Shown in pieces: positions 58,461 through 62,332 of a stretch of DNA of 64,000 nt; within the stretch, counting starts at the first letter, position 1, and each line of letters begins with the position of its first letter. This stretch comes from Gloeobacter morelensis MG652769. GTDB taxonomy: Bacteria; Cyanobacteriota; Cyanobacteriia; Gloeobacterales; Gloeobacteraceae. The notes under the pieces are model-generated. The model was not told the DNA's origin, made no database searches, and saw only the letters and a program-made list of their open reading frames with translations. Both the position numbers and the translations under genes were made by a program. The stretch is from assembly GCF_021018745.1 (NCBI RefSeq), contig NZ_CP063845.1, forward strand, positions 124,001 through 188,000, in the 5' to 3' direction.

Positions 58461-59029
58461 TCAGAGCTGCGCGCCGGAGCGGAAGGCGTCGAGGTCTGGC
58501 GCGTCGAGCACAAGATCGAGCAATTGTTCGAGTTGCCCAGAATCGTCGATGCCGTTCAGGGTGGCTTGCAGATCCGTGCTCAGGTTGCCGAAGCGGTGGG
58601 TCAAAGCCCGCACCAGAGCCCTGCGCAGCCCTTCCGCCTGGCCTTGTTGTTCTCCGCGTCGTTCGGCTTCTTGAAGAAGCTGTTGTCCAAGCGGGGTGTC
58701 CTGAAGCAGATCGAACATGGCGCGACTCTCCACAAAAGCCCTAAGAACGTCCCGATGCACACGGATCGAGGCCAGCAGCAGGGTCACGGTGAGCAGTTCG
58801 GCCCGCTGCTGAGTCGATTGTACCTGCCGGTCGATGGCTGCCACACAAGTGTTCAGAAGCTCCTGGGCTGGAGCACCCCCCATTAAGGGCACCAGAGGCA
58901 TCAGCCCCGGTAGAGCGCTATCGAGTAGCGGTTGGGGGTCAAGTTGCCAGAGTCGGATCAGAGGAAGTCCCGGCTGTAGCGGGTAGCCAGTCCGCGCAGT
59001 CCGGTATCAAAGGGTCGCCGCTGGGTCAT
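58461..59029 (-). pseudogene. Rpn-like PD-(D/E)XK transposase-family gene with internal deletion
   Basis: The family's N-terminus TQRRPFDTGLRGLATRYSRDFL begins at the ATG at 59029 and hits a stop at ~58958. Directly behind it, in another frame, LIRLWQLDPQPLLDSALPGLMPLVPLMGG resumes the family ~100 residues further on and runs to the usual C-terminal domain (LTHRFGNLSTDLQATLNGI). The nuclease core is missing. An ORF from MPLVPLMGG (58901) is still open but lacks its own signals. Confidence 0.75.
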
Positions 59030-59206
59030 CGTTGTCGGAGGGAAGGTAGTGCGCGTTCCAGATTGTGCCGTACTGCAAAAGAACCGGCAATCGCCTGTCC
59101 GCGGTGGCGGTTTTTTTGGCCTGCCCTCTTCTCGAACCTGTTTTGTTCGCAAACGACCAGCCTCCCATGGGAAATGAGACAATCAAATCTCATAGCAAGT
59201 GTGCCC

Positions 59207-60193
59207 ATGGGAAAAGCCCTCCCCCAAACCGTTCTATTGGGCATGGTTCTACTGAGCGTTGTACTTGGTTCGTGCGCCCCGGCCAAAAAGCAGCGCTTGC
59301 GGTGCACTGACTTTACTTCGTCCCAGCAGGTGATCGATGCCTACCGCAGCGGTGCCAAGTACCTTGACAGTGATGGGAACGGCTACGCCTGCGAGGACAA
59401 ATTCAATGTCTATGTCGGTAAGCGGGACACCGTGGCGGTGGTTCCGCCAGCAGCAAAGACCGGCACGGCCATAGAGCATTTGCTTTTGGGCAATCCCAGC
59501 CGGGCGACAGCCACCCCCGGCAGTGTCAATAACTATCTGCTTCTCAAGCCGCAGTACGCGCTTTCGTACAACGCGGCCAAAGGGATTCCCAACTGGGCCA
59601 GCTGGCAACTGAACCGCGCCTGGCTGGGAAGGACCGATCGCCAGAACGACTTTCGCCCGGACGAGAGCCTACCGGTGGGATTATATCGGGTGAATCCTGC
59701 CGAGTACACCGGCAGCGGCTACGACCGGGGCCACCTGGTGCCCTCGGCGGACCGCACGGTGAGTGGGGTGGACAACTCCGCAACGTTTTTGATGACCAAC
59801 ATGACCCCCCAGTCACCGGATCTCAACCGCGGCCCCTGGGAGAAGCTCGAAAGCTACTGCCGCGAACTGGTCGGCGCAGGCAAAGAACTCTACATCGTGG
59901 CTGGGGCCAGCGGGGAACTTGGCAGAATCGGCGGCGGCAAGGTGAGTGTGCCCGCGCGACACTGGAAGGTGATCGTCGTGCTGGATGCGCCGGGGGCAGG
60001 TCTGGCCGCAGTGACGGGACGCACGCGGGTGATTGCGGTGGACATACCCAATGGCCCAAGAATCAAAGATGCCGGCTGGCGCGAATTTCGGGTGAATGTC
60101 GACCGCATCGAAGCGGCCACCGGCTACAACCTGCTCTCGGGGGTGCCCGAGAACATCCAGGCGTTACTCGAAAGCCGCCTGGACAATCGGTAA
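59207..60193 (+). CDS. nucA: NucA-like DNA/RNA non-specific endonuclease, lipoprotein with excalibur domain
   Basis: 328 aa from the ATG at 59207. Lipoprotein signal with lipobox LGSC (Cys23). Residues ~33-65 are an excalibur-type calcium motif (RCTDFTSSQQVIDAY, then YLDSDGNGYACED). The nuclease domain (~120-320) has the catalytic DRGHLVPSADR (D173, H176), TNMTPQ and LNRGPWEKLE with the Mg-binding Asn and Glu. It degrades single- and double-stranded DNA and RNA outside the cytoplasm. The convergent neighbour is its NuiA-like inhibitor. Confidence 0.93.
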   Translation: MGKALPQTVLLGMVLLSVVLGSCAPAKKQRLRCTDFTSSQQVIDAYRSGAKYLDSDGNGYACEDKFNVYVGKRDTVAVVPPAAKTGTAIEHLLLGNPSRATATPGSVNNYLLLKPQYALSYNAAKGIPNWASWQLNRAWLGRTDRQNDFRPDESLPVGLYRVNPAEYTGSGYDRGHLVPSADRTVSGVDNSATFLMTNMTPQSPDLNRGPWEKLESYCRELVGAGKELYIVAGASGELGRIGGGKVSVPARHWKVIVVLDAPGAGLAAVTGRTRVIAVDIPNGPRIKDAGWREFRVNVDRIEAATGYNLLSGVPENIQALLESRLDNR

Positions 60194-60262
60194 ACAGGCA
60201 ACGCCAGGCGAGCGGGAAACCCTTGCGAGCAATCGTTTTCACCCTGACACCTGGCAGCTGCT

Positions 60263-60685
60263 CTAAGTTTCGACGATCCGGGTTTTGAGGCCGCTCAGGG
60301 TACCCTCCTGGTTGAGGCCGACGATGTAAACATCCGCTTCGACACCGCCCACCCGGTAGACTTTGATCTCGTCCAAAGCGTTTTTGAGGGTGCCAAGCAG
60401 CGCCTGGAACCGCTGGGCGGTGGCCCGCTGCCGAGGCTCCTGCCAGTCCGCCTCGCGGCAAGCCGGTGCAAAGAACGCCTCGAGATCCAGTTCGCTGACG
60501 GCCATATCCGGAGGGTGACCCGTGTTTTCCAGCAATTGCTCTGGGTTCAACTCTGAGATGAGCCACTCGAACACTTCAAGGGGCGCGTCCGTCTCGCTTG
60601 GAAACAGCAATCCGTCGGCGGCGCGCTCCAACTCGGCGGTGGCACCCTGCAGCGCGAAAGTAGGCTGGGAAAAGTCTGGTTCCAT
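60263..60685 (-). CDS. nuiA: NuiA-like nuclease inhibitor
   Basis: 140 aa (Anabaena NuiA has 135). The family pattern is clear: ADGLLFPSETDAPLEVFEW near the N-terminus, AFFAPACREADW, RFQALLGTLKNAL, VYRVGGVEADVYIVG and the C-terminal RIVET. In Anabaena the inhibitor's Glu24 and C-terminal Thr reach into the NucA active site; both are kept here (SET and the final Thr). No signal peptide, so it would protect the cytoplasm from unexported NucA. Its gene faces nucA tail-to-tail, 69 nt apart. Confidence 0.9.
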   Translation of the reverse strand: MEPDFSQPTFALQGATAELERAADGLLFPSETDAPLEVFEWLISELNPEQLLENTGHPPDMAVSELDLEAFFAPACREADWQEPRQRATAQRFQALLGTLKNALDEIKVYRVGGVEADVYIVGLNQEGTLSGLKTRIVET

Positions 60686-60909: not shown

Positions 60910-61125
60910 TCAGTCGGCCGCTTCGAGATCGCCGCCGTCGATCAGAAAAGCACCCTGCTTGAAGCGCACCGCCCAGTAGTTGCCGGGCCTGCGATCGAGA
61001 ATGAACCCTTCCTGGCCCACCTCCAAAAAGGCCGAGGAGCGCAGCATGGGCATGGCGTCGGCGGTTTTGACGTAAGGCGGCACCCGCACCAGACGCACTT
61101 TTTGCCCGACTTCCATCCCGGCCAT
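60910..61125 (-). CDS. sipA: SipA-like regulatory protein (DUF3148)
   Basis: 71 aa from the ATG at 61125 (61116 also possible). The compact SH3-like pattern VGQKVRLVRVPPYVKTADAM, LEVGQEGFILDRRPGNYWAVRF and GAFLIDGGDLE fits SipA, which binds and stimulates the histidine kinase NblS that governs high-light and nutrient stress genes in cyanobacteria. It lies next to the divergent yidD gene. Confidence 0.85.
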   Translation of the reverse strand: MAGMEVGQKVRLVRVPPYVKTADAMPMLRSSAFLEVGQEGFILDRRPGNYWAVRFKQGAFLIDGGDLEAAD

Positions 61126-61262
61126 GACCCACCGCGTGCGATAACTGCCCCTAGTGTACCGCCGCTGCGAATATCGACCTTTCCCCAGGTTTTCCACAGA
61201 CCTGTGGAAAAAGTTGGAAAACTTTGGGCTTGCTAGGCTGGATGGGTCCAGGAAGATTATCC

Positions 61263-61499
61263 ATGAAGCTTGTCCGCAGGGCCGCCACCGGGGCCATCCG
61301 CTTCTACCAGCGGTTTATTTCGCCTTTGACGCCGCCCACCTGCCGTTTCGTGCCCACCTGCTCGGAGTACACCCGCCAGGCGATCGAGCGATTTGGGGTG
61401 GCGGGGGGCATCTGGCTGGGCACCCAACGGTTATGCCGCTGCCATCCGCTGCATCCGGGCGGTTACGACCCCGTACCCGAGCGCCGGTCGGTCCGTTAG
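61263..61499 (+). CDS. yidD: Membrane protein insertion efficiency factor YidD
   Basis: 78 aa from the ATG at 61263. The family signature is complete: [25 protein letters not shown] (residues ~10-34), then [25 protein letters not shown]. It is a small amphipathic inner-membrane-associated protein that aids YidC/Sec insertion. tatC follows 47 nt downstream on the same strand. Confidence 0.95.
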
Positions 61500-61546: not shown

Positions 61547-62332
61547 ATGACCGTTACGCGCCCAGACTTCGAACAAGAAGACAATCCGCCCGAGGCCGAC
61601 GACGCCCTCGACTCCAAGAACGAATTTCCGGACGAGGTCGAGATGACCCTGGGGGAGCACCTCGAAGAGTTGCGCACCCGCCTCTTCTGGGCGCTTGGCA
61701 CCTTTATCGCGGCCACTATCGGCTGTTTTATCTTCGTCAAACCGATCGTTGATCTGCTGCAGAAGCCGGCGGGCACGACGGTCAAATTCATCCAGACCAT
61801 CCCGGGCGAATTTTTCTTTGTCTCGTTTAAAGTGGCGGCCTACAGCGGTCTGATGGTCGCGGCCCCGATGATTCTCTATCAAATTGTGCGCTTCGTGCTG
61901 CCGGGGCTCAGTCGCCGCGAGCGCAAGCTCATCCTGCCCATCGTGGTCGGATCGAGTGTGCTGTTCGTGGTGGGCGTCGTCTTTGCCTTCATGGTCCTCG
62001 CCCCGGCCGCCCTCAACTTTTTTGTAAGCTACGGCGACGGCGTCGTCGATCAGACCTGGACGATCGAGCGCTATTTCGACTTGATGTTCGTGATGCTGAT
62101 CAGCACCGGCATCGTCTTTCAGGTACCGATTTTGCAGGTGCTGCTCGGGGTGAGCGGCATCGTCACCTCCGAGCGGATGTTCTCGGTCTGGCGCTACGTG
62201 AGCGTCTTTGCGGTGGTACTGGGGGCCATCGTCACCCCCTCGACCGACCCGCTCACCCAGACCTTTCTAGCTGGGGCGGTGACAGTCCTCTATTTTGGCG
62301 GCGCGGGCGCGGTCAAACTGATCGGCAAGTAA
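61547..62332 (+). CDS. tatC: Sec-independent protein translocase TatC
   Basis: 261 aa. A charged N-terminal tail (~1-33) precedes the TatC hallmark MTLGEHLEELRTRLFWAL, six membrane helices, and the conserved GEFFFVSFKVAAYSGLMVAAP and FGVSGI-like ILQVLLGVSGIV regions. It recognises twin-arginine signal peptides and, with TatA/B, exports folded proteins. Located after yidD, so the two may form a protein-targeting operon. Confidence 0.95.
   Translation: MTVTRPDFEQEDNPPEADDALDSKNEFPDEVEMTLGEHLEELRTRLFWALGTFIAATIGCFIFVKPIVDLLQKPAGTTVKFIQTIPGEFFFVSFKVAAYSGLMVAAPMILYQIVRFVLPGLSRRERKLILPIVVGSSVLFVVGVVFAFMVLAPAALNFFVSYGDGVVDQTWTIERYFDLMFVMLISTGIVFQVPILQVLLGVSGIVTSERMFSVWRYVSVFAVVLGAIVTPSTDPLTQTFLAGAVTVLYFGGAGAVKLIGK

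Follow-up and report, generated by a model that had tools for sequence, protein, structure and literature searches.

A tail-to-tail NucA/NuiA-type nuclease and inhibitor gene pair in Gloeobacter morelensis, with an excalibur-like module on the nuclease

Two facing genes in the window (the 64,000-nucleotide stretch of Gloeobacter morelensis MG652769 DNA analyzed here) very probably constitute a NucA-NuiA cassette kept on the chromosome, which would encode an exported, lipid-anchored nuclease and a cytoplasmic NuiA blocking the enzyme before its export. The pair is the well-known NucA/NuiA system and is mostly explained by it, and the module added to the nuclease is a rare variation. The two open reading frames (ORFs) were found where the sequence-only reading had placed them, in convergent (tail-to-tail) orientation, with their stop codons separated by 69 bp. 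The features of the locus are as follows.

59207..60193, plus strand: nucA-like gene for a 328-aa DNA/RNA non-specific endonuclease, lipoprotein precursor (PF01223, structure matches)
59207..59275, plus strand: signal peptide and lipobox LGSC, with predicted lipidated Cys23 (sequence, PS51257-like pattern, orthologue N termini)
59303..59395, plus strand: excalibur-like module, residues 33-63 (sub-threshold PF05901, ligand spacing)
59396..59470, plus strand: linker, residues 64-88, of low model confidence (pLDDT 63 for block 71-80 and 57 for block 81-90)
59495..60151, plus strand: catalytic beta-beta-alpha metal-finger domain (PF01223, conserved columns in 37 homologues)
59723-59734, plus strand: DRGH motif, D173 R174 G175 H176 (positions checked)
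60194..60262, no strand: intergenic gap between the nucA and nuiA stops, 69 bp
60263..60685, minus strand: nuiA-like gene for a 140-aa nuclease inhibitor, no signal peptide (PF07924, 2o3b_B match)
60266..60268, minus strand: codon of C-terminal T140 (NuiA T135), invariant in 28 NuiA
60443..60448, minus strand: codons of D80 and W81 (NuiA D75 and W76), W81 conserved to at least 90% and position 80 mostly D or E
60593..60595, minus strand: codon of E31 (NuiA E24), invariant in 28 NuiA

The assignment of the pair as NucA-like and NuiA-like, made originally from the letters of the DNA, was borne out by profile and structure comparisons. The nuclease scored 199.5 bits against PF01223 (cut-off, 23), and its best match among solved structures was Anabaena NucA (1zm8/2o3b_A; E about 1e-94 by phmmer). 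Its AF2 model, with a mean pLDDT of 87.8 and confident over the core, matched 2o3b_A in Foldseek with a TMt of 0.97, an rmsd of 0.8 A, and about 59% identity. The numbering of the window nuclease equals that of NucA plus 52; R145, D173, R174, H176, N207, E215, and R219 correspond to NucA R93, D121, R122, H124, N155, E163, and R167. D121 is named for 2O3B in PMC5374557. All the catalytic and metal-site residues are present (DRGH plus N207, E215, R219, and R145), and the 37 homologues show no variation at D173, H176, and E215 and very little at R145, R174, N207, and R219.

The inhibitor scored 157.5 bits against PF07924 (NuiA; cut-off, 22.1) and matched the NuiA structures 2o3b_B and 1j57 with an E value of about 4e-26 (3.7e-26 for 2o3b_B). 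Its AF2 model (mean pLDDT, 81.4; confident over the core) matched 2o3b_B in Foldseek with a TM of 0.86/0.89 and an rmsd of 1.3 A, while TCTP-like matches of the same model were weak. The paper on 2O3B reportedly describes NuiA E24 and the C-terminal T135 as entering the NucA active site, and D75 and W76 as a second contact; in the alignment to 2o3b_B, E24, D75, W76, and T135 fall on E31, D80, W81, and T140 of the window protein. The two Anabaena contact residues that the inhibitor had been said to keep are E31 and T140, and D80 and W81 are present as well. Chance ORFs or a pseudogene were rejected as explanations, both frames being intact and the residues conserved.

The nuclease was also correctly described as a lipoprotein as far as its N terminus goes: MVLLSVVLGSC, with its lipobox after a hydrophobic signal peptide, fits the PS51257-like pattern, and lipidation is predicted. 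An in-frame ATG at 59174 is a possible alternative start, the Met at 59207 being the one common to the orthologues. A lipobox is common among NucA relatives, near-Anabaena types included, and neither it nor the facing pair is special to this locus.

The pair resembles NucA-NuiA of Anabaena (Nostoc) sp. PCC 7120 (1ZM8, 2O3B, and 1J57) in the fold and catalytic residues of the nuclease, in the fold of NuiA, and in the contact residues, at about 59% (NucA) and 40% (NuiA) identity. The likeness extends to an exported enzyme with an intracellular inhibitor and to the convergent arrangement, also found in near relatives; unlike the Anabaena enzyme, the window nuclease has an excalibur-like module after the lipobox. 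Serratia nuclease, EndoG, and EXOG share the same DNA/RNA non-specific endonuclease superfamily fold but are more distant (22-31% identity) and had no NuiA partner in the comparisons made. NuiA inhibits NucA competitively, at a site that overlaps that of DNA (PMC5758888), and the measured pKd of NucA-NuiA is 11.49 (PMC5374557). The NucA signal peptide is encoded by 69 nt and was removed in one study to retain the enzyme inside the cell (PMC4890671); a NucA homologue is present in the Anabaena exoproteome (PMC4390845). The nuclease and NuiA of the window most likely have the same roles as their Anabaena counterparts.

We infer the location and activity of the nuclease and its inhibition as follows. 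The nuclease would be exported via Sec, lipidated on Cys23, and tethered to the outer face of a membrane; its Mg/Mn-dependent metal-finger domain would there cut DNA and RNA with no sequence preference. NuiA, which has no export signal, would remain in the cytoplasm and block any nuclease that folds prior to export, placing E31 and the C-terminal T140 in the active site. The presence of an export signal on the nuclease and its absence from the inhibitor argue for self-protection by an intracellular inhibitor, as had been suggested. Since the convergent order implies separate promoters, the inhibitor could be made regardless of the nuclease.

We then consider the linkage of the two genes in other cyanobacteria, a survey that had been proposed as a check. 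Of 386 genomes sampled across the phylum, 34 had NuiA and 40 had PF01223; all 22 genomes with canonical NuiA (at least 100 bits) also carried PF01223, against 2.3 expected (Fisher 3e-25, the related genomes not being independent). Named genomes were scanned with a Nostocales NuiA alignment, a query biased to Nostoc-type NuiA, the 28-row alignment being too divergent; with the window NuiA as the sole query, the same scan found nothing. Among the best 80 of 113 matches, the nuclease was convergent with NuiA at 72 loci (only a fragment at two of them) and in another arrangement at one, and at seven there was no nuclease within the DNA examined (at most 3 kb on each side and less near contig ends). 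In the phylum and family set, convergent linkage was seen in 22 of 34 rows, two of which are pieces of one gene. The distances of linked NucA and NuiA correlate (Mantel r = 0.87, 89 pairs), to which species history contributes. The facing nucA/nuiA arrangement is therefore a conserved cassette, and this conservation, together with the co-occurrence of NuiA and the nuclease, places the locus in the known NucA/NuiA system. A system whose biochemistry comes from a single Anabaena strain is thus a tail-to-tail cassette conserved across cyanobacteria, this lineage included, and often located on plasmids.

The plasmid locations bear on a reading that treats the pair mainly as a mobile nuclease-immunity cassette spread by plasmids, the nuclease hitting competitors or their DNA and NuiA acting as the immunity protein. 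NuiA was found on 24 plasmid records, most from Nostocales; of the 24, 11 were typed as mobilizable or conjugative; a ParD/ParE pair adjoins it on one plasmid and integrases lie near it on another. Its distribution in the phylum sample is patchy, and some genomes carry more than one NucA/NuiA pair. We nevertheless regard this reading as unlikely: within this genus the pair sits on the chromosome and three species share its upstream gene order, neither a delivery domain nor a secretion system lies next to it, and phage records contained no NuiA. IMG/VR viral contigs, searched with patterns from Nostoc-type NuiA, likewise gave no relative. NuiA-like domains were also seen inside longer frames, some 300-680 aa in length and often with two such domains (L026, L030, L031, L032, and others), several of which sit in genomes without PF01223.

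The genus itself fits the preferred reading of a chromosomally kept cassette, with exceptions. The order prk-tkt-nucA-nuiA occurs in three genomes of the genus, the pair being chromosomal, and is kept in G387 and G388, both with the module. The CRR42-like, YidD, and TatC genes and the DUF4351 ORF that surround the pair in the window did not turn up in the 18 kb searched in G387 and G388; as far as the first three show, gene order is conserved on the tkt side only. In the congener G386, nucA and nuiA are not neighbors, and the encoded nuclease is without a module. The genome of the window itself encodes a second PF01223 nuclease (C1:4252023-4252781, L002/L074), which has no lipobox, module, or adjacent NuiA and falls with its genus orthologues in another clade; the only NuiA of the genome is that of the window. 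The unlinked genes of G386 and this second nuclease without an inhibitor count against the preferred reading, as do the sub-threshold score of the module, its N58 in place of the Asp of CbpL, the lack of a module in the G386 nuclease, and the part of the distance correlation that is due to species history.

The intergenic gap contained no strong shared hairpin (fold z = -0.47, not beyond shuffles) and no terminator-like match, the region gave no Rfam family, NCBIfam yielded no match, and the sole promoter-like match, at 58817-58844 on the minus strand, was weak. The 305 bp upstream of the nuclease gene contain no TTAA, which is the core of the cyanobacterial Pho box, and so show no sign of such a box. 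This speaks against scavenging of phosphate or nucleotides from external DNA as the main task of the nuclease, NuiA being the safety device; such a task would be a purpose within the preferred explanation rather than a different mechanism. The predicted export and non-specific cutting of the enzyme favor such a purpose, as does the nutritional role suggested for the family (PMC4890671), and we hold it to be a reasonable possibility, somewhat short of an even chance. Defence, also proposed from the sequence alone, found no support in the analyses made.

The remaining peculiarity of the locus is the module, which starts ten residues past the lipid anchor. The claim of an added excalibur motif holds, on a match just short of threshold. 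The module scored 20.6 bits against PF05901 and so missed the family cut-off of 22, as did those of the orthologues (19.8 and 18.1 bits). It retains Cys33 and Cys62 and four probable Ca ligands, D54, D56, N58, and E63, at spacing 0, 2, 4, and 9. In the excalibur domain of CbpL the Ca ligands are D58, D60, D62, and E67, the domain is unfolded without Ca, and a disulfide joins its two cysteines (PMC5137146). The ligand spacing of the nuclease module matches that of CbpL, N58 standing where CbpL has Asp. A stand-alone 91-aa protein of the same genome (L078/L169, around C1:1065329-1065457) is 65% identical to the module over 43 residues; it was not found in any other genome of the family sample. 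The fused nuclease L039 has an excalibur match above threshold, at 24.4 bits. The excalibur identity is credible despite the low score because of the conserved ligands and cysteines, the same-genome paralogue, and the match of L039.

Like PF05901 domains of pneumococcus CbpL and Bacillus subtilis YokF, the module would be a small extracellular Ca-ligand loop with two cysteines, and it directly follows the export signal, as in CbpL. Unlike them, it is fused to a NucA-type nuclease, has Asn as the third ligand, and scores under the family cut-off. Further fusions of the module to NucA were found in G105, G215, and G170 (N-terminal) and in two Nostoc (C-terminal); that of G170 (L059) was recognized by eye and by a weak phmmer match, not by Pfam. 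Nearly all NucA relatives lack it. A tree of 108 rows requires three changes of the N-terminal module label and four when every label is counted; judged from these sequences, N-terminal fusion to NucA is seen on at least three separate branches and C-terminal fusion once.

As for what the module does, we infer that between the anchor and the enzyme it most likely serves as a spacer, or as a domain for surface interaction, that folds on binding Ca, and not as a catalytic switch. Were it a genuine Ca switch, its folding with Ca close to the anchor would alter nuclease activity, stand-off, or release. The ligands and cysteines at CbpL spacing and the separate fusions on several branches agree with a switch, while the sub-threshold match, the 25-residue low-confidence linker between module and enzyme, and the lack of the module in most NucA make it improbable. 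Slightly less probable is the broader proposal that excalibur was attached independently in several cyanobacterial lineages and that surface Ca controls folding, stand-off, or release of the tethered NucA, so that the pair would consist of a surface nuclease gated by Ca and an inhibitor inside the cell. The repeated gain of excalibur supplies natural variants for asking if a tethered nuclease is changed by a spacer that binds Ca. Two NucA relatives, L035 and L122, have a different cysteine-rich N-terminal segment (CECPYD...RPGG/RPSG), to which, in L035, Pfam gave no match.

Apart from the module, the locus is ordinary and well explained. Between tkt and nucA lies a 146-aa ORF (58461-58901, minus strand) with a sub-threshold DUF4351 match (22.7 versus 25 bits), perhaps the remnant of an Rpn-like protein. 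Beyond the pair are genes for a CRR42-like protein (60910-61197, minus strand), YidD (61224-61499, plus strand), and TatC (61547-62332, plus strand). Although tatC is nearby, Tat export of the nuclease was rejected, as its signal peptide has no twin Arg.
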